Below are positions 2 through 9,695 of a stretch of DNA of 64,000 nucleotides, in pieces (position 1 is the first letter of the stretch; each line of letters opens with the position of its first letter). A program made the translations under genes and the position numbers. Source of the DNA: Paracoccus fistulariae (GTDB taxonomy: Bacteria; Pseudomonadota; Alphaproteobacteria; Rhodobacterales; Rhodobacteraceae); NCBI RefSeq assembly GCF_028553785.1, contig NZ_CP067136.1, positions 2,080,001 through 2,144,000 of the forward strand, read 5' to 3'. The notes under the pieces are model-generated. The model saw only the letters and a program-made list of their open reading frames with translations, was not told the origin of the DNA and did no database searches.

Positions 2-757
2 GGCTGGGGCGAAAACATGGCCTTCTTCGGCACGCTGGTGAACAGCAATGGCGGGATCTGGTTCGACGAGAACTGGACGCCGCAGCTGGATCAGCAGCCC
101 TGGTCCGATGCGCTGAACTATTATCTGGACGTGATGACCAATTACGGACCGCCCGGCGCGACCTCGAACGGGTTCAACGAGAATCAGGCGCTGTTCCAGA
201 CCGGCAAATGCGCGATCTGGATCGACGCGACCTCGGCGGCGGGGCGCGTCTTTGACCCGAACCAGTCGCAGGTCGCCGACAGCGTCGGCTTTACCGTCGC
301 GCCGGTTGCCTCGGTCGACAAGGGGAATGCCTGGTTCTGGGCCTGGTCGCTGGCCATCCCGGCCAGTTCGAAAAAGGTCGATGTGGCCAAGGATTTCGTG
401 GCCTGGGCAACCAGTCAGGACTACGTGACTTTGGTGGGTGAGCAGAAAGGCTGGGTCGCGGTTCCGCCCGGAACGCGCCAGTCCACCTATGAGAACCAGA
501 ATTACGTCGATGCCGCCCCCTTTGCCGCCACGGTGCTGAGCGCGATCGAGAATGCCAATCCCGATGACGCGACGGCGGTGCCGGTGCCTTATTCCGGCAT
601 CCAATATGTCTCGATCCCCGAATTCCAGGGCATCGGGACCAGCGTCGGGCAGAATATCTCGGCCGCGCTGGCGGGCCAGATGTCGGCGGAAGACGCGCTG
701 GCAGCGGCGCAGTCCACCGCCGCACGGGAAATGGCCCGCGCAGGCTATCCGAAGTAA
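2..757 (+). CDS. Polyol ABC transporter substrate-binding protein, C-terminal part
   Basis: The reading frame is open from the first bases of the window, so the N-terminus and signal peptide are missing; an internal ATG at 17 is not the real start. About 250 residues remain. The segment begins GWGENMAFFG and includes NSNGGIWFDE and TGKCAIWIDA, typical of the family 1 periplasmic binding proteins that serve sorbitol/mannitol ABC importers. The expected role is to capture a sugar alcohol in the periplasm and hand it to a permease pair, whose genes are not in view. The two dehydrogenase genes that follow on the same strand support a polyol substrate. The exact ligand cannot be read from sequence. 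Confidence 0.85.
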   Translation, partial: GWGENMAFFGTLVNSNGGIWFDENWTPQLDQQPWSDALNYYLDVMTNYGPPGATSNGFNENQALFQTGKCAIWIDATSAAGRVFDPNQSQVADSVGFTVAPVASVDKGNAWFWAWSLAIPASSKKVDVAKDFVAWATSQDYVTLVGEQKGWVAVPPGTRQSTYENQNYVDAAPFAATVLSAIENANPDDATAVPVPYSGIQYVSIPEFQGIGTSVGQNISAALAGQMSAEDALAAAQSTAAREMARAGYPK

Positions 758-855
758 CAGCTCCTCCCTGCCGAAGCATCGTCCGGCCTTGCCGGGCGAT
801 GCTCCCCCGGAACATCCCGGCACCACGCCCGCATCCCCCATGGAGTCGATCTGAC

Positions 856-1629
856 ATGAAACGCCTTGACGGAAAATCCGCGCTGATCACCGGTGCCGCG
901 CAAGGGATCGGCAAGGGCTTTGCCAAGGCCTATCTTCGTGAAGGCGCGACGGTGGCCATTGCAGATATCAATCTGGACGCGGCACAGGCGACCGCGGCAG
1001 AGATCGGTGGCGCCGCCTATGCGGTCGAACTGGATGTCAGCCGACAGGACAGCATCGACGCGGCCATCGCCACGGTGGTGGATCGCGCGGGCAAGCTGGA
1101 TATCCTGATCAACAATGCCGCCCTGTTCGACGCGGCGGAGACCGTCGATATCACGCGCGACAGCTATGACAGGCTATATGCGGTGAATGTCGCGGGCACG
1201 CTGTTCACCATGCAGGCGGCAGCGCGCCAGATGATCGCGCAGGGCCATGGCGGCAAGATCATCAACATGGCCAGTCAGGCCGGCAGGCGGGGTGAACCGC
1301 TGGTGCTGGTCTATTGCTCGACCAAGGCGGCGGTGATCAGCATGACCCAATCGGCCGGGCTGAACCTGATCCGGCATGGCATCAATGTGAACGCCATCGC
1401 GCCGGGCGTGGTCGATGGCGCACATTGGCAACATGTCGATGCCATGTTCGCGCGGCTGGAGGGCAAGGAACCCGGCCAGAAAAAAGCCGAAGTCGAAGCA
1501 GGCGTGCCCGCTGGCCGCTTTGCCACACCGGACGATCTGACCGGGATGGCGGTGTTTCTGGCCTCGGACGAGGCGAATTACATCGTCTCGCAATGCTATA
1601 ATGTCGATGGCGGCCAATGGATGAGCTGA
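856..1629 (+). CDS. SDR polyol dehydrogenase (SmoS / galactitol dehydrogenase-like)
   Basis: This 257-residue classical short-chain dehydrogenase has the cofactor motif TGAAQGIG at residues 12-19, NNAA near 86, and the catalytic set N111, S140, Y153 and K157. Spacing and length match the Rhodobacter sorbitol/galactitol dehydrogenase group, which oxidises a hexitol to a ketose with NAD+. The ATG at 856 is preferred over an upstream in-frame start at 799, because GGAG lies about ten bases before it and the fold begins directly there. It sits between the polyol-binding protein and a zinc dehydrogenase and is probably co-transcribed with both. Galactitol, sorbitol or a related hexitol are all possible substrates. 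Confidence 0.88.
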   Translation: MKRLDGKSALITGAAQGIGKGFAKAYLREGATVAIADINLDAAQATAAEIGGAAYAVELDVSRQDSIDAAIATVVDRAGKLDILINNAALFDAAETVDITRDSYDRLYAVNVAGTLFTMQAAARQMIAQGHGGKIINMASQAGRRGEPLVLVYCSTKAAVISMTQSAGLNLIRHGINVNAIAPGVVDGAHWQHVDAMFARLEGKEPGQKKAEVEAGVPAGRFATPDDLTGMAVFLASDEANYIVSQCYNVDGGQWMS

Positions 1630-1648: not shown

Positions 1649-2644
1649 ATGAAGGCGATTTCTTATCCGTCCAAAGGCCATGTGACGCTGACCGACCTGC
1701 CGGAACCTCAGCCCGCCGCGCATGAGGTGCTGATAGAGGTGCGTTCCAGCGGCATCTGTCACACCGATATCGACGTCATGCATGCGCGCTATGGCAGCGG
1801 CGCCTTTCCGGTCGTGCCGGGGCATGAATATGCGGGCGTGGTCACGGCGGTCGGCGACAAGGTATCGGGCTTTGCGCCCGGCGATCGGGTGGTGGTCGAT
1901 CCGAACCTGTCCTGCGGAACCTGCCGACCCTGTCAGCGGGGGCAGCGCAACCTTTGTGTCCTGCTGGGCGCCTATGGCGTGTCGCAAAATGGCGGCTTTG
2001 CCGAGTTCAGCGCGGTCGATGCGCGGAACCTGCACCGGATCGGCGATCTTCCCTTCGATCAGGCCGCCCTGGCCGAGCCGATGGGCTGTGTGCTGAACGG
2101 CATCACCGCGCTGGCACCCAACCCGCAGGATGAGGCGCTTGTGATCGGTGCCGGGCCCATCGGCCTTCTGCTGGCGATTGCGCTGCGGACGCGCGGTCTG
2201 ACGCGGATCGCGCTGGCCGATATCGATCCCGCGCGGCTGGATCTGGCGCGGTCCTTTGGCTTCGACGCGGTGGAAAGCGGCAGCACCGCGATGGCGGCGA
2301 TGCGGCGGGGAATGGATATCTGCATCGACGCCACGGGGCGCATAGATGTGGCCGCCCAAATGACCGATTACGTGGCGGATGGCGGCAGCCTTCTGTTCTT
2401 CGGCGTCTGCCCCCCGGATGCGAAAATCCAGATCAGCCCGTTCGAGATCTTCCGGCGTCAATTGCGCCTGCAGGGCACCCATTCGCTGAACCGCAATATT
2501 CCGCAGGCGCTGGAGGCGATCCGCAGTTTCGGGCCGGGCATTGCCGGGCTGATCTCTCATCAATTGAGCCTGGCCGAGGTGGCAGAGGTGCTGGGAAGCC
2601 ATGCCCCTGCGGGAAGCCTGAAAATACAGGCGCGGCTGGGCTGA
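1649..2644 (+). CDS. Zinc-dependent medium-chain alcohol dehydrogenase (polyol type)
   Basis: This 331-residue MDR enzyme has catalytic zinc ligands C37 and H59 with E60 (motif GHEYAGV). The structural zinc lobe is C89, C92, C95 and C103, and a Rossmann motif GAGPIG starts near residue 168. It should oxidise a secondary hydroxyl of a sugar alcohol with NAD(P)+. AGGAAAGG precedes the ATG, and the gene starts 19 bases after the SDR stop, so it belongs to the same operon. In Agrobacterium tumefaciens C58 a dehydrogenase of this superfamily makes D-tagatose from D-altritol beside a PfkB kinase and a GatZ protein. The same gene types occur here, so that reaction is a good inference, not a proof. 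Confidence 0.85.
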   Translation: MKAISYPSKGHVTLTDLPEPQPAAHEVLIEVRSSGICHTDIDVMHARYGSGAFPVVPGHEYAGVVTAVGDKVSGFAPGDRVVVDPNLSCGTCRPCQRGQRNLCVLLGAYGVSQNGGFAEFSAVDARNLHRIGDLPFDQAALAEPMGCVLNGITALAPNPQDEALVIGAGPIGLLLAIALRTRGLTRIALADIDPARLDLARSFGFDAVESGSTAMAAMRRGMDICIDATGRIDVAAQMTDYVADGGSLLFFGVCPPDAKIQISPFEIFRRQLRLQGTHSLNRNIPQALEAIRSFGPGIAGLISHQLSLAEVAEVLGSHAPAGSLKIQARLG

Positions 2645-2651
2645 AAAGGCA

Positions 2652-3731
2652 TCAGGCCGAGGCGCGCAGCATGATGCTGGCTTTTAGCAATATCGCGTCA
2701 GAGGTCGCCTCGGCCGTGGTGGCCGGGGCCTTGTCGTCCAGCATCACCAGCAGCCGGTTGGTGGCAAGCCGGGCAATTTCGGCGTAATCCTGCGCCACGG
2801 TGGTCAGGGGCGGACAGGCATATCGCGCCAGCGGATGGTCGTCATGGCCCGCGATCCGCAGGCGGCTGCCGGGATCGCGACCGACCTTGATCCCGGCCTC
2901 CCACGCGGCCAGCAGCGCGCCGAATGCCAGACGGTCATTGGCGCAGAGCAGCGTGGAATAGGGCAGACCCGCCGCCAGCGCCTTTGCCATCTGCCGATGG
3001 GCCACAGCTTCGAAATCCCAGCTGTCGACGGGATCCGATGGCAGCACGCGCGGTTCCTGCCCCGCCCTGTCCATCGCCTCTTCATAGGCCCTGCGCCGCT
3101 GACGCGCGTTCAGATTGACCTCTGGCATCCCCAGAAAGCAGGGCGGCGTCCCCGAACGGCAGAGGTAATCGACGATCAGACCCATGCTCTGGCTGTTATC
3201 GGTCCCGATATAGGGCATCCCCTCCTGCCCCGGGGCGTCGACGTAGATCAGCGGAACGCGGCTGGCCAGCGAATCCAGCTTGGACTGCCCCCGCGACTGG
3301 CCCAGAGGCGCGACAATCGCGCCGGCGACATTCATGGATTCAAAGCGTTCAATCGCCTCGGCCTCAAGATCCGGGCGACCGTTCGAACTGAGGACGATGG
3401 CGAAATATCCGGCATCGGTGGCGATTTCCTCGATCCGGCGGGTCAATTCCATATAGAATGGGTCGATGGCGTTCGGGATGATAACGCCAAGGATCTTGGT
3501 GCGCTGGCGTTTCAGATTGACCGCGAAAAGATTGGGCCGAAAGCCGGAATCCGTGATCGCCTTCTCGATCCGCTTGCGGGTCTTTTCGCGAACCGATGCG
3601 GGATCGTTGAAGTATTTCGACACTGTCGGGCGCGAAAGCCCGACATGGGCCGCGAAATCCTCCATGGTGCGGATGCCGTCTGTCTTTTCCTTTGCCTTAT
3701 TCGAACCCAATGTCACCAGTTCCCATCTCAA
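2652..3731 (-). CDS. LacI family transcriptional regulator
   Basis: The protein is about 359 residues with an N-terminal LacI helix-turn-helix (HVGLSRPTVSKYFND) and a periplasmic-binding-protein-like effector domain beginning around ILGVIIPNAIDPFY. It is last in a - strand operon, 9 bases after the kinase/GatZ gene, so it probably represses its own transporter and kinase genes when the sugar is absent. The start is uncertain. The longest frame opens with TTG at 3731; GTG at 3716, TTG at 3710 and ATG at 3665 are alternatives, and the last would begin just before the HTH. The stop faces that of the zinc dehydrogenase 7 bases away. Confidence 0.88.
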   Translation of the reverse strand: MRWELVTLGSNKAKEKTDGIRTMEDFAAHVGLSRPTVSKYFNDPASVREKTRKRIEKAITDSGFRPNLFAVNLKRQRTKILGVIIPNAIDPFYMELTRRIEEIATDAGYFAIVLSSNGRPDLEAEAIERFESMNVAGAIVAPLGQSRGQSKLDSLASRVPLIYVDAPGQEGMPYIGTDNSQSMGLIVDYLCRSGTPPCFLGMPEVNLNARQRRRAYEEAMDRAGQEPRVLPSDPVDSWDFEAVAHRQMAKALAAGLPYSTLLCANDRLAFGALLAAWEAGIKVGRDPGSRLRIAGHDDHPLARYACPPLTTVAQDYAEIARLATNRLLVMLDDKAPATTAEATSDAILLKASIMLRASA

Positions 3732-3740
3732 ATGCGCCCG

Positions 3741-5966
3741 TCAGGCCCCGCCACAGGCCGAAACGTAGTCCTGCGTTAGCCGCTGGACCGCCGCAAGGGC
3801 AAGTGCATTCGCGCGCGGCGCCAACCTGCCTGCCCGCACATCGGGATAAAGACCGCCAAGATATTGCCCGATCAGCGTCTCTGGCAGATCGCGCTCGCCC
3901 AGCAGGTCGAACAGTTCCGCCACCGCCTGCGCGGCCTGAGGATCGGGCCAATAATAACGGATCCGGTCGCTGTAAGAGAAGTGCCGTTGCAGCGCACGTT
4001 CCGCATCGCTGCCGTGGTAATAGCGATCCCAATTCCTGGGATTGGCCAGCATGACCTGTTCCATCGTGGCGCGCAGGGTGTGGTCGCGCTGGCCGGGGAA
4101 CAGTTCCTCGGCAATATCGTCCAGACCGTACAGCGCCTCTCGCAGAACGAAGGTCAGGCCGGGGCCGACCTTGAGGATCGAAAAACCGTCATTGACCAGC
4201 GCCGTCAGGGCCTCGCGCGTCTGGTAATCGGTGGAATGCGCCTCATAGACCAGACCGGGCATATCCGACAGCGCGGCGCTGAGGCCCGTTGCGGCGACCG
4301 GATCGTAGCCGACGACATTATGATTGCCGAATTCGACGCCCGGCTGCACCACCAGCCCGATCACGCGATCAAAGGCATCCTCCAGCCCACGGGCGGCAAA
4401 GGCGTCCTTATGCACCGCCACGGTCGTCCGCGCGGCATCGGGCGCGGTCAGTTCCAGACCCTCGATTTCCTCCATCGCGCCGCCCGGAATCGGAACCTCG
4501 GTGCCGATGATATAGACCGGAGGAATGCCGGTTTCCGGGCGCGCCTCTTCGGCGGCCTGCGCCAGCCGGGCGGCACGCCGGGCCGTTTCGGCATCGTCAA
4601 GGGCCACCGGCTCTCCGGCGGCGCCCATCGAGCAGTCCAGATGCAGCTTGGTGAAGCCGGCAGCGGCATAGGCGCGGATCATCACCTCGGCCTTGTCCAT
4701 GGCCTGATCGGCGGGCAGATCCTTCCACGGGTTCGGTCCCAGATGGTCGCCGCCCAGGATCAGGCGCTCGGTCGGGAAACCGACCCGGTCCGCGATATCC
4801 TCGACAAAGCGGCGGAAATCGGCGGGTGTCATGCCGGTATAGCCGCCCTCTTGATTGACCTGATTGCAGGTCGCCTCGATCAGCAGGGGCAAGGGCGTGG
4901 GCAGCGTCGCCCGCATCGCGGCCTCGATCGCCAGCGGATGCGCCGTGCAGATCGAGGGGATCCCCGAAGGTCCGGGCCGATCGCGCCATGCCGCGATATC
5001 CTTCAGGCTGTTGGCGTTCGTGGCGTCACCCGCCTGCCCTGCCAGCATCGCGTCCAGTTCCGCGCGGGTCGAGGTGCCCTCCATCGGGCCCAGTCTGGTG
5101 ACAGCCCGGGCACCGGCAGCATTGGCATAGCGCAGCGCCTGTTCAGGTGCGGCATCCGCCAGCCAGAAGCTGAGAAAGGCGCCGCCGAAACTGTCGCCCG
5201 CGCCGGTGGGGTCAACCTCATGCACGCGAAGCGGCGCGGCATCGACGCGGCCCGCGGCCTCGAACAGGCTGGCCCCGTCCGCGCCACGCTTCAGCACAAC
5301 GGTGCGAATGCCCCGCGCCAGCAGCGCAGCGACCGCGGCGGCTTCGTCGCGCGTCTTGTCGAACAGGAACAGTTCATCGCCCGAGGGCATGAAAAGATCG
5401 GTCATCTCCAGCATGTCTTCCAGCGCCTCGCGCAGGCCGGGCGCATCCAGGATTTCGGGACGCAGGTTCGGATCGAAAGAGATCGTGCCGCCCTGCGCCT
5501 TGATCCGCCGCGCCGCCTGCATGACCATCTGCCCCAGACCCGGCGCCGACAGCGCGGTGCCCATGACATGCAGATGGTCGCAGCCGTCGATCAGCGCCTC
5601 GGACGCCGCCGTCGGGCGCAGATTGCCGCAGGCGCTGTTGCGGATATTATAGACAAAGGACCGGCTGCCATCGTCGCGATAGCGCACAAAGGCGCTGCCG
5701 GTGCTTTCCCCCGGCGCAATCTCGATCCCCGAGACATCCACCCCGTCGGCGCTCAGACGGTCGATATTCAGCCGCCCGAAATCATCGTCCCCCACGCGAG
5801 AGACAATGGCCGCAGGCGTGCCCAGCTTGCCCAACTGGTCAATGAAGATCGCAGGCGCGCCCGAGGGGAACGGGCCGACCAGCGGCTGCGCGTCTTGGAA
5901 ACCGTCGCCCGTGGTCGCAGCCACGATTTCGACCAGAACCTCGCCGATTGTCAGAACCTTGTGCAT
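3741..5966 (-). CDS. Bifunctional PfkB sugar kinase / GatZ-type tagatose-6-phosphate protein (fusion)
   Basis: A single 741-residue frame holds two enzymes. Residues 1 to about 310 are a PfkB/ribokinase fold with the anion-hole motif DPTGAGDSFGGA (G255-D258, D258 the catalytic base). Residues from about 318 are a complete GatZ/KbaZ-type domain (PF08013), with CTAHPLAIEAA near 340, GGYTGMTPADF near 374 and GGDHLGPNPW at 405-414. PF08013 members were long regarded as non-catalytic aldolase subunits. A member in A. tumefaciens C58 is a D-tagatose 6-phosphate 4-epimerase working after a PfkB tagatose kinase. The fusion should therefore phosphorylate D-tagatose and epimerise the product to fructose 6-phosphate. 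There is no stop or frameshift at the junction. The gene starts 3 bases after the permease stop. Confidence 0.88.
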   Translation of the reverse strand: MHKVLTIGEVLVEIVAATTGDGFQDAQPLVGPFPSGAPAIFIDQLGKLGTPAAIVSRVGDDDFGRLNIDRLSADGVDVSGIEIAPGESTGSAFVRYRDDGSRSFVYNIRNSACGNLRPTAASEALIDGCDHLHVMGTALSAPGLGQMVMQAARRIKAQGGTISFDPNLRPEILDAPGLREALEDMLEMTDLFMPSGDELFLFDKTRDEAAAVAALLARGIRTVVLKRGADGASLFEAAGRVDAAPLRVHEVDPTGAGDSFGGAFLSFWLADAAPEQALRYANAAGARAVTRLGPMEGTSTRAELDAMLAGQAGDATNANSLKDIAAWRDRPGPSGIPSICTAHPLAIEAAMRATLPTPLPLLIEATCNQVNQEGGYTGMTPADFRRFVEDIADRVGFPTERLILGGDHLGPNPWKDLPADQAMDKAEVMIRAYAAAGFTKLHLDCSMGAAGEPVALDDAETARRAARLAQAAEEARPETGIPPVYIIGTEVPIPGGAMEEIEGLELTAPDAARTTVAVHKDAFAARGLEDAFDRVIGLVVQPGVEFGNHNVVGYDPVAATGLSAALSDMPGLVYEAHSTDYQTREALTALVNDGFSILKVGPGLTFVLREALYGLDDIAEELFPGQRDHTLRATMEQVMLANPRNWDRYYHGSDAERALQRHFSYSDRIRYYWPDPQAAQAVAELFDLLGERDLPETLIGQYLGGLYPDVRAGRLAPRANALALAAVQRLTQDYVSACGGA

Positions 5967-5969
5967 GGA

Positions 5970-6947
5970 TCACGCTCTCCGCTTCTTGGCACGGACATCC
6001 AGCCAGACCGCGATCAGGATCACCAGACCCTTGACGATCAGCTGATAGAAATAGGGGACAGACAGCATGTTCATGCCGTTATTCATCACGCCGATGATCA
6101 GCGCGCCGATCAATGTGCCGATCATGGTCCCCACCCCGCCCGCAAGGCTGGTGCCCCCCAGAACGGCCGCCGCGATGGCGTCCAGTTCATAGCTCATCCC
6201 GGCATTGGTCTGCGCCGAGTACAGGCGCGAGGACAGCAGGATCCCGGCAATGGCCGCCATGACCCCCGACAGGGTGAAGATGGCGATTTTCAGCCGGTCC
6301 ACCTTGATCCCGGAATAAAGCGCCGCCTCGCGATTGCCGCCGGTCAGATAGGTGCGCCGCCCGAAGGTCGTGCGCGACAGCAGGATATGGTTGAACAGAA
6401 ACAGCACCAGCACGATCCAGATGATGATCGGCAGGCCCAGAAAGCTGCCCGAGCCGATGGCGATCCAGGACGGGTCCGAGATCATCGCGGGCGCGCCATT
6501 GGTGGGCAGACTGACAACGCCGCGATAGATGCCCATTGTCGCCACGGTCACGATGAAGGATGGCAGCATCAGCTTGGCCGTCAGCACGCCGTTGATGCCC
6601 CCCATGACCGCCCCTGCCGCCAGCGTGAACAGCAGCGCCGGGACAAAGCCCACGCCCATCGCCAGCGCCTGCGCCCCGGCCATGCCCGCCACCGCGATGA
6701 TCGAGCCGATGGAGAGGTCAATCTCTCCCAGCAGGATCACCCAGGTCATGCCGAAGGCCGCGATGGCCACGACGGCGACCTGCTGCAGGATATTGGTCAG
6801 GTTGGCCACCGTCATGAAGCGGCCATTCATCAGCGTGAAGATCACGCAAAGCGCCACCAGCGCCATGAGGATGCCGCCATATTGCAGCATCAGGGCGCGA
6901 AGTTGCTGGCCCCGCGCGGTCGCGGCAGGATCGGTCGTCTGTGTCAT
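5970..6947 (-). CDS. Ribose-type ABC transporter permease (RbsC-like)
   Basis: This 325-residue hydrophobic protein of the BPD_transp_2 family has about nine to ten predicted membrane helices. It contains the family-typical segment GEIDLSIGSIIAVAGM near residue 75 and GGTSLAGGVGTMIGTLIGA near the C-terminus. Permeases of this class form a homodimeric pore with an RbsA-type double ATPase. The start codon overlaps the upstream ATPase stop by four bases, and the kinase/GatZ gene follows after 3 bases, so translation is probably coupled. Sugar specificity is set by the binding protein, so the substrate is inferred from the kinase context. Confidence 0.92.
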   Translation of the reverse strand: MTQTTDPAATARGQQLRALMLQYGGILMALVALCVIFTLMNGRFMTVANLTNILQQVAVVAIAAFGMTWVILLGEIDLSIGSIIAVAGMAGAQALAMGVGFVPALLFTLAAGAVMGGINGVLTAKLMLPSFIVTVATMGIYRGVVSLPTNGAPAMISDPSWIAIGSGSFLGLPIIIWIVLVLFLFNHILLSRTTFGRRTYLTGGNREAALYSGIKVDRLKIAIFTLSGVMAAIAGILLSSRLYSAQTNAGMSYELDAIAAAVLGGTSLAGGVGTMIGTLIGALIIGVMNNGMNMLSVPYFYQLIVKGLVILIAVWLDVRAKKRRA

Positions 6948-8455
6948 TTGGAAGTTCCCGTAGCATAGGCCATGACATGTTCCGGCGTGAGTTCATCCCC
7001 CGACAGGGTGGCTTTGATCCGTCCTTCGGCCATGATGGCCACGCGATCCGCCAGACCCAGAACCTCGGGCAGTTCGGATGAGACCATGATGATCGCCGTG
7101 CCTTCCGAAGCCAGTTGCCGGATGATGCGATAGATTTCAAACTTGGCGCCCACATCGACGCCGCGGGTGGGTTCGTCCAGGATCAGAACCCCGGGCCGCG
7201 TCAGCAGCCATTTGGCCAGCACCACCTTTTGCTGATTGCCGCCCGACAGCGTGCCCGCCAGCGTCTGCAGCGAATTGGTGCGGATCGCCAGCCGCTGCAC
7301 CTCGGCCGCCGCAGCCTGACGCTCGGCCCCGAAATTCAGAAAGCCCGACCGCCCGGCAAATGCGGGAATGGACGCGGATGAAATATTGGGCTGCAGGGCC
7401 GCGCCCAGGACCAGACCTTCTTCCTTGCGGTTCTCGGTCACGAACCCGATCCCGGCCCGGATGGCCTCGACGGGGCTGCGGAACTGGACGGGTTTGCCGC
7501 CAAGCCATATCTCGCCCGTGGCGGCGCGCATGCCGAAGATGGCATTCATCACCTCGGACCGTCCCGACCCGACCAGCCCGAAAAATCCAAGGATCTCTCC
7601 GGGCATGACCTGAAACGAGATATCCGCAAACTCATCCGCGCGTGTCAGCTTGCGGACCTCCAGCGCGGGTGTGGTGCCGCGCGTCTGGCCGGGTGCCAGC
7701 GCGGGCGGGTAGATCTCGTCCATCCGGCGGCCGACCATCAGGGCGATCAGCTCTTCGATGGTGGTGTCGTTGCGGTCCCGCGTCGCGACATATTCGCCGT
7801 CCCGAATGACCGTAATGTCATCCGACAGGCGCATGATTTCCTCCATCCGATGCGAAATATAGATGATCGCGGTGCCCCGCGCCTTCAGACGCTCGATGAT
7901 GGAAAACAGGATATCGGCCTCGGAATCCGACAGCGAAGAGGTCGGCTCATCCAGGATCAGCACCTTGGCCGGATGGGACAGGCCCTTGGCGATCTCGACC
8001 AGCTGACGTTGGGCAATCGACAGATCGCCCACTTTGGCATCGACATTCACCGGCAGGCCCAGATCCGCCACCAGCTCTGCCGCCATCTGCCGCAGCTTGC
8101 GGTCGTTGATAAAGCCGAAGCGCGCGGGTTCGTGGGTGGCCATGATATTTTCGGCCACGCTGAGATTGTTGCACAGGCTCAGTTCCTGAAACACGATCGC
8201 CAGCCCGCGCTGCGCGGCCTCGGTCGGGCTTTGCGGGCTGTAGGGCTGACCCGCCAGTTCCATCCGGCCATCGGTCGGCTGATAGACCCCCACAAGGATC
8301 TTCATCAGCGTCGATTTTCCGGCGCCATTTTCGCCCAGGATCGTGTGAACGCGGCCCGGACGGATCTGCAGCCGCATGTTCCTCAGCGCCACGACCGGAC
8401 CGAAATGCTTCTTCACATCGGACATCGACAGAACGATGTCAGGCGCGTCAGTCAT
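6944..8455 (-). CDS. Sugar ABC transporter ATP-binding protein (RbsA-like, two ATPase domains)
   Basis: This 503-residue protein is the tandem ATPase typical of ribose/xylose/galactose importers. The N-terminal domain has Walker A GENGAGKST at 41-49 and Walker B LILDEPTSSL. The C-terminal domain has the signature LSGGNQQKVVLAKW followed by LILDEPTRGVDVG and, as usual for this family, a degenerate Walker A. It energises import together with the RbsC-like permease. Its stop overlaps the permease start by four bases. A hairpin lies in the 66-base gap before it, so the binding protein upstream may be made in excess. Confidence 0.94.
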   Translation of the reverse strand: MTDAPDIVLSMSDVKKHFGPVVALRNMRLQIRPGRVHTILGENGAGKSTLMKILVGVYQPTDGRMELAGQPYSPQSPTEAAQRGLAIVFQELSLCNNLSVAENIMATHEPARFGFINDRKLRQMAAELVADLGLPVNVDAKVGDLSIAQRQLVEIAKGLSHPAKVLILDEPTSSLSDSEADILFSIIERLKARGTAIIYISHRMEEIMRLSDDITVIRDGEYVATRDRNDTTIEELIALMVGRRMDEIYPPALAPGQTRGTTPALEVRKLTRADEFADISFQVMPGEILGFFGLVGSGRSEVMNAIFGMRAATGEIWLGGKPVQFRSPVEAIRAGIGFVTENRKEEGLVLGAALQPNISSASIPAFAGRSGFLNFGAERQAAAAEVQRLAIRTNSLQTLAGTLSGGNQQKVVLAKWLLTRPGVLILDEPTRGVDVGAKFEIYRIIRQLASEGTAIIMVSSELPEVLGLADRVAIMAEGRIKATLSGDELTPEHVMAYATGTSK

Positions 8456-8521: not shown

Positions 8522-9409
8522 TTACATCCCGGTATAGATGCCCGGCACGATCGGCTGTTCGGCAGGCACCTCTTCGCCCGCGATGACCTGCGCGGCCGTG
8601 TCCACGGCGGTCTTGCCCATTTCCTGCGGGAATTGCTGGATCACGCCGACCATGACCGGATCGCTGTCCACGGCATTGCGGGCCTCTTCCATGCCATCAA
8701 AGCCGATGACCTTCACCTGATCCTGCAGCCCGGCCGATTTCACCGCGACCGCCGCGGCCAGTGCCGCATCGTCGCCGAAACCGAAAATGCCGGTAATGTC
8801 GGGATTGGCCTGCAGCATGTTCTGCGACACGGCCAGCGCCTCGGCGCGGGTGATGCCGGTCTGCTGGGCGACGATCTCGATCCCCGGGAACTCTTCCAGA
8901 CCCTTCTTGAAGCCGTCGATCCGGGCAACCACGGACTGGACCGTCGGATAGTCGATGATGGCGACCTTGCCCTTGCCCTCAAGAACCTTGCCCATCAGCT
9001 CGGCCGCCTTGACGCCGCCGGTATAGTTGTCGGTGCCGATATGCGACGTCACCTGGCCATTGGCGATCGGAATATCGACGGTGATCACCTTGATCCCTGC
9101 GGCTTCGGCCTTGGCGATGGCGGCCAGCGCGCCCTGGCTGTCGACCGGCGAAATCACGATGACATCAACGCCTTTGACGATGAAATCCTCGACATCGGCC
9201 AGCTGCTTGTTCAGGTCCTGGTTCGCAATGCTGATCTCCAGCGGCACGCCCTTGACCTCGGCCTCGGCCTTCATCGCATCGGCCAGTTCGATATAGAACG
9301 GGTGCTGCTGCGTCAGAAGCGAGGCGCCAATTCCATCGGCAAAGGCAGCCGAACCCGTGCCAAGCGCAACAGTGGTCAGCAGCGCCGAAAGCGCTTTTTT
9401 CAAGCTCAT
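8522..9409 (-). CDS. Sugar ABC transporter substrate-binding protein (RbsB-like)
   Basis: This 295-residue periplasmic binding protein of the ribose-binding (Peripla_BP_4) type has a signal peptide of about 24 residues ending in a likely AFA/DG cleavage site. Family features include HPFYIELADAM, SPVDSQGALAAIAKAEAAG and VIGFDGMEEARNAV. The ATG at 9409 is chosen because GGGAGGA stands seven bases before it and the signal peptide begins exactly there; an in-frame start at 9493 would put a non-signal extension ahead of it. It is first in the five-gene operon. The ligand is probably D-tagatose or a related hexitol or ketose. Confidence 0.93.
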   Translation of the reverse strand: MSLKKALSALLTTVALGTGSAAFADGIGASLLTQQHPFYIELADAMKAEAEVKGVPLEISIANQDLNKQLADVEDFIVKGVDVIVISPVDSQGALAAIAKAEAAGIKVITVDIPIANGQVTSHIGTDNYTGGVKAAELMGKVLEGKGKVAIIDYPTVQSVVARIDGFKKGLEEFPGIEIVAQQTGITRAEALAVSQNMLQANPDITGIFGFGDDAALAAAVAVKSAGLQDQVKVIGFDGMEEARNAVDSDPVMVGVIQQFPQEMGKTAVDTAAQVIAGEEVPAEQPIVPGIYTGM

Positions 9410-9695
9410 ATCAATCCTCCCAGGATCACTCTTTGAAGAGGAGATCAAATTCGCAGGCCATCGCCCTGCCCGCCCCCTCCTTGCGGTATCCACGACGGTA
9501 GCAAATAATTCACTCGTGTCAATTTTAATTTTTTCTTGGTTAAATTAATTGCCCATCTGCTCTGCCCCCGCAGGCAGCTTTGCGGATCCTGTCGCCACGG
9601 TCGCGCGCCGCTCTCAAAATTAATGCGCGCTTCAAGGCAACTTTCGCCGCTTTCGGCGCGTAAATGCCATTACATATCAGCGCGCGGAGGAGTTC
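9410..9695. promoter_or_regulatory. Divergent intergenic region with promoter of the sugar operon
   Basis: This 286-base region is AT-rich at 9500-9550 and separates the sugar operon (- strand) from the DUF2177 gene (+ strand). On the - strand a perfect TTGACA (-35, 9517-9522) is followed after 16 bases by TACCGT (weak -10, 9495-9500). No convincing LacI operator was identified upstream. A 10-base palindrome AAAGCGCTTT (9388-9397) resembles LacI-family sites but lies inside the first codons of the binding protein, so it may be chance. Confidence 0.5.

Follow-up and report, generated by a model that had tools for sequence, protein, structure and literature searches.

A kinase-GatZ gene fusion in Paracoccus fistulariae that most likely encodes a bifunctional D-tagatose kinase/D-tagatose-6-phosphate 4-epimerase

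A 64,000-nucleotide stretch of Paracoccus fistulariae DNA (hereafter the window) carries a gene whose product is very probably a bifunctional enzyme of D-tagatose breakdown, fused locally from a kinase-GatZ gene pair. Judged from its sequence, the protein is most likely a D-tagatose kinase/D-tagatose-6-phosphate 4-epimerase. The pathway is an ordinary one in which both activities were already known; the architecture is unusual and has evolved repeatedly. What is new is the recent, local origin of the window fusion, the separate origin of the same fusion elsewhere and the finding that the names shown for such proteins are mostly misleading. The gene and its junction lie as follows.

Positions 3741 to 5966, minus strand: fused gene, 741 residues, PfkB tagatose-kinase domain (residues 1-299) followed by GatZ/KbaZ domain (residues 321-738).
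Positions 5007 to 5036, minus strand: kinase-GatZ junction, about residues 311-320, placed by comparison with split relatives, coordinates converted from residue numbers.

The gene is read as one chain of 741 codons from an ATG at 5966 to a stop at 3741, and a plus-strand reading of the same interval as a gene was ruled out by an early stop. Residues 1-299 matched Pfam domain PF00294 at 155.7 bits (cut-off 25.8) and residues 321-738 matched PF08013 at 595.3 bits (cut-off 26.7), each over nearly the full length of the domain, and these scores exclude a chance match of either one. The first-pass annotation had described a single frame joining a complete PfkB kinase to a complete GatZ domain, and these boundaries bear it out; its motif positions were likewise recovered, with GAGD at residues 255-258, which we take to be the PfkB catalytic motif, and GGDHLGPN starting at residue 405. 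The best matches among solved structures are to single halves, with 3iq0 matching the kinase domain and both 3txv and 2fiq matching GatZ. Pairwise dN/dS values against six split Paracoccus relatives, which mostly reflect history before the fusion, were 0.125-0.236 for the kinase half and 0.110-0.186 for the GatZ half. An antisense frame of 1034 codons (3864-6968, plus strand) spans the fusion and permease genes and is taken as a by-product of GC-rich coding DNA and not as a gene.

The kinase half passed the cut-off of the NCBI tagatose kinase equivalog NF049991 narrowly (429.4 against 420, a margin of 9.4 bits), and the GatZ half passed that of NCBIfam model TIGR02810 (613.9 against 568.8) and scored under the cut-offs of NF012002 and NF011626, which are specific for KbaZ and GatZ respectively. 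That narrow margin, the many substrates of PfkB relatives and the resemblance of the transporter parts to ribose and xylose models, only below cut-offs, would suit a kinase acting on some other sugar, such as another ketohexose, in a related pathway that does not involve D-tagatose. We consider this quite unlikely, however, given that the chain also carries a member of the GatZ family and that the same two families have been fused separately elsewhere.

The site described for E. coli GatZ in PMC11907403 comprises metal ligands H88, H257 and E171 together with D87, K279, E44 and C20. All seven residues are identical in the fusion (C340, E364, D407, H408, E490, H577 and K599), and these seven and kinase residue D258 are invariant in all 41 aligned fused proteins, window included. 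Presence of this published epimerase site, together with the NF049991 and TIGR02810 scores, agrees with the earlier assignment of the two halves as tagatose kinase and epimerase. PMC11907403 also puts forward a zinc-dependent retro-aldol/aldol mechanism for GatZ as a docking-based proposal.

The source genome encodes one PF08013 protein and two PF01116 class II aldolases. The first of these aldolases is a fructose-bisphosphate (FBP) aldolase (TIGR01521, over cut-off), and the second, over the Pfam cut-off only, is encoded at this locus.

Locus L003, P. fistulariae genome, C2:13884-17693: second class II aldolase (PF01116) with IolG-, IolB- and IolC-like neighbours.

This second aldolase gene adjoins the inositol dehydrogenase gene IolG (over cut-off), the nearby IolB- and IolC-like genes scoring below their cut-offs, and its product is probably an inositol-pathway aldolase (IolJ-type) caught by no NCBIfam cut-off. 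In a whole-genome search for a GatY/KbaY-type partner neither PF01116 protein passed a tagatose-aldolase cut-off; the absence of such a partner, first remarked for the window, extends to the whole genome, and no gatY or kbaY gene lies just outside the window. Going by the name of TIGR02810 and by most source names shown, the GatZ half would be a non-catalytic helper of tagatose-bisphosphate aldolase. This role is very improbable in a genome whose two class II aldolases are of the kinds just described, and epimerase activity is known for E. coli GatZ and KbaZ (PMC11907403). The fusion itself had been offered in the first-pass annotation as support for an epimerase over an aldolase subunit. That preference stands, with the site residues and the genome-wide lack of GatY added to it, but it no longer depends on the fusion because E. 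coli GatZ and KbaZ support conversion of fructose 6-phosphate to tagatose 6-phosphate in engineered strains (PMC11907403). Because the site residues are conserved and the genome encodes no tagatose-aldolase partner, kinase followed by epimerase on one chain is the best reading, and most names shown for fused proteins are misleading; naming could be corrected, since most of those source names still say non-catalytic aldolase subunit.

The genes surrounding the fusion are listed below.

Positions 8522 to 9493, minus strand: RbsB-like periplasmic sugar-binding protein (PF13407), listed with a GTG start, the true start possibly further in.
Positions 6944 to 8455, minus strand: RbsA/XylG-like ABC transporter ATPase (PF00005), NCBIfam matches below cut-offs.
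Positions 5970 to 6947, minus strand: RbsC-like ABC transporter permease (PF02653), best NCBIfam match a ribose permease, below cut-off.
Positions 2652 to 3731, minus strand: LacI-family regulator (Pfam), 9 bases behind the fusion.
Positions 1649 to 2644, plus strand: zinc-dependent alcohol dehydrogenase (PF08240, PF00107), likely a polyol dehydrogenase.
Positions 799 to 1629, plus strand: short-chain dehydrogenase, NCBIfam L-iditol 2-dehydrogenase (416.1 against 338).
Positions 17 to 757, plus strand: 3' part of a family-1 sugar-binding protein gene, whole in L060:9399-10757.

On the minus strand the order is RbsB, RbsA, RbsC, fusion and LacI, with spacings of 66, -4, 3 and 9 bases, and the fusion is the fourth gene of a probable five-gene transporter-enzyme-regulator operon. 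The gene order transporter-kinase-GatZ-LacI of the Rhizobium/Paracoccus tagatose operon is thus present around the fusion. Among 13 loci in relatives, 12 carried kinase and GatZ, the Tabrizicola locus (L016) having only a distant GatZ; LacI followed GatZ in 12/12 of the two-gene loci and transporter genes preceded the kinase in 11 of them (not in L006). L015 (P. mutanolyticus RSP-02) and L059 show fragmented frames for kinase, GatZ, transporter and regulator alike, which suggests poor sequence or a decayed operon. Similarity of the short-chain dehydrogenase to the P. denitrificans protein starts only at 862. No permease genes were found beside the family-1 binding protein here, nor in P. lutimaris and P. 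aurantiacus. Approximately 520 kb away in the same genome (L127, C1:1551000-1563000), a complete, smoEFGKS-like set of binding protein, permeases, ATPase and dehydrogenase includes the closest permease relative, at 68% identity.

In the proposed pathway the sugar would enter via the RbsBAC-like transporter or, alternatively, would be supplied from a hexitol (galactitol, D-altritol) oxidised by the neighbouring dehydrogenases. The N-terminal PfkB domain, going by its curated family, would convert D-tagatose and ATP to D-tagatose 6-phosphate, and the C-terminal GatZ domain, going by its conserved residues, would invert C4 to yield fructose 6-phosphate in a zinc-dependent retro-aldol/aldol reaction. 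Which reaction supplies D-tagatose is uncertain because the product of a related galactitol dehydrogenase is the L form of the sugar; a D-altritol 5-dehydrogenase makes D-tagatose (both from PMC12193009). Family scores, the complete set of site residues, the gene order of split relatives, lack of a GatY-type aldolase, independent fusions and the epimerase activity of E. coli GatZ and KbaZ all count for the bifunctional reading; against it count the small tagatose-kinase margin, the uncertain supply of D-tagatose and the chance of internal GatZ initiation.

The fused form is rare among relatives. PF08013 was present in 32 of 125 genomes of the genus, 51 of 295 of the family, 5 of 385 of the class and 35 of 299 of the phylum (34 over cut-off), sets which overlap so that the counts are not additive, and in each set the single fused case was the window's own. 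One phylum genome (G817), with a 743-codon frame and a partial 26.8-bit match, was left out of the fused/split verdict, as were matches cut by contig ends (e.g. G224); matches without a locus sequence were taken as split if their open frame was shorter than the approximately 715 residues needed for both domains. Long frames in G403, G292, G127, G1042 and G1108 were rejected as further fusions, the kinase being out of the GatZ frame. In the family of Acidisoma cellulosilyticum, 22 of 150 genomes had PF08013 and two were fused. The search for PF00294-PF08013 fusions proposed in the first-pass annotation also found many fused proteins already in databases, so the window fusion is not unique: 114 of the 120 clusters listed, from 6184 matched proteins, carry both domains. 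A literature search of titles and abstract openings, with most subscription papers outside its reach, found no published description of a kinase-GatZ fusion.

In all eight split Paracoccus loci compared, 3-6 bases separate the stop codon of the kinase from the start of GatZ; in the other relatives compared this gap ranges from 4 bases (Acidisoma) to approximately 25 (Rhizobium Root1203), and is 2 in S. meliloti 1021. When the window is set against P. lutimaris with no gaps allowed, GAC stands in place of the kinase stop and ACG in place of the GatZ ATG. At the junction a TGA persists one base out of frame, which would fit a one-base deletion. This comparison shows that both codons have been lost from an ancestral gene pair in which they lay close together, a few bases from each other, the mutational path being conjectural, so that GatZ is probably produced only within the fused chain. 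In-frame ATG codons occur near the junction at residues 295, 307 and 351, and those at 295 and 307 may leave internal GatZ initiation possible. Database protein P0001, whose source is not shown, has 6 substitutions relative to the 741-residue window protein, including a Leu at 307, and has equal length and an identical linker. A sequencing slip is an unlikely cause of the joined frame because P0001, a differing sequence, has the same length and linker. That the genes are split in the near relatives examined would be expected if the joined frame came from faulty sequencing or assembly of two truly separate genes; against this stand P0001, though its independence cannot be told, and the loss of both the stop and the GatZ ATG, for which one base-calling slip would not account, and we hold such an error to be extremely improbable. 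Comparison with the split relatives points instead to a young and local fusion.

Phylogenetic analysis indicates separate origins. In a GatZ tree of 93 rows (from 178 available domains) the group that holds the window protein and P0001 also contains 16 split rows (SH-aLRT 99) and excludes the remaining fused rows, and a single clade of all fused rows was rejected both in this tree (p-AU 5.2e-5) and in a kinase tree of 74 rows from 156 available (p-AU 2.1e-5). One inherited fusion shared with the older group is consequently rejected by the trees of both halves. Both trees were built by a quick method and drew long-branch warnings; every third old-type fused protein was kept, duplicate loci and three split database proteins were dropped, and the kinase tree also omitted L015. 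L062, a split row on a long branch, is placed within the old fused group by the GatZ tree (support 89) and outside it by the kinase tree, and the number of changes is therefore three in the former and two in the latter. At least two changes are forced by well-supported branches in both trees, and the same fusion arose separately elsewhere, with at least two origins. Interdomain spacing is 37 in the window, with a median of 38 and a range of 36-58 in the 85 fused proteins holding both motifs (of the 114 among the 120 listed).

A further, strain-level joining may have occurred in S. meliloti. Strains Ak57 (L093) and R14 (L097) have four extra bases (GGCC) at the junction relative to strain 1021, and in both the kinase frame continues into GatZ, the GatZ frame of R14 being broken further on; these could be real variants or shared errors. 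The record tables of both strains list no gene for the kinase.

Both halves could work as proposed and gain nothing from their fusion; in an operon whose two genes almost touch, stop and start would then have been lost with little or no selective effect, and we give this an even chance. The short stop-start gap of the Paracoccus loci means that few changes suffice, only one of the genus's GatZ-bearing genomes is fused and a small junction insertion in two S. meliloti strains has the same effect on the frame. Persistence of an old, diverse fused group and similar interdomain spacing in both fusion groups speak against neutrality. Rather doubtful, in our estimate, is the proposal that selection repeatedly favoured a one-chain tagatose kinase and tagatose-6-phosphate 4-epimerase whose adjoining sites would pass tagatose 6-phosphate on and prevent its build-up. 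For the window's case, neutral stop/start loss is about as good an explanation as selection.

Separate fusions of the same two genes provide assay-independent evidence that GatZ acts directly after tagatose kinase. Natural fused and split pairs share 82-85% identity over the GatZ half and would allow the value of fusing two enzymes to be tested cleanly; producers of tagatose as a sweetener may also take an interest in a one-chain tagatose enzyme. In one A. cellulosilyticum genome a split kinase-GatZ pair occurs together with a fused copy of the old type (L069/L067), a convenient natural comparison.

Among known systems, E. coli GatZ and KbaZ share the PF08013 domain and the same seven site residues with the fusion but stand alone, in an organism that also has the GatY and KbaY aldolases (PMC11907403). 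The 5-dehydro-2-deoxygluconokinase/aldolase fusion NF047869 also joins, by its model name, a PfkB-type kinase to a pathway aldolase, but its second domain and pathway differ and the window protein reaches 89 bits where the cut-off is 600. Older kinase-GatZ fusions (P0029 from Acidisoma sp. C75, P0020 and P0077 from Acidimicrobiales, L069 from A. cellulosilyticum) have the same domains in the same order with similar spacing, and their halves score as tagatose kinase and GatZ family, the GatZ half of P0077 falling just below the TIGR02810 cut-off (563.3 against 568.8); they differ in their separate origin, the 39 old-type proteins aligned (P0001 apart) being 50-56% identical to the window protein. 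At two old-fusion loci, L090 (A. cellulosilyticum, 8 frames scanned) and L118 (G1115, 10 frames), an MFS transporter lies two frames downstream, in contrast to the ABC operon at the window, and no class II aldolase was found among the frames scanned. Growth of S. meliloti on galactitol is reportedly tied to sorbitol dehydrogenase and the pSymB tagatose operon. That pSymB locus and P. denitrificans PD1222 plasmid 1 (PDEN_RS24145-RS24090) share the order RbsB, RbsA, RbsC, kinase, GatZ and LacI with the window, although in both the kinase and GatZ are encoded separately. PD1222 has a complete second transporter, of which only the binding protein is left beside the window fusion, and an L-iditol 2-dehydrogenase and a zinc dehydrogenase lie nearby in PD1222 as they do in the window.
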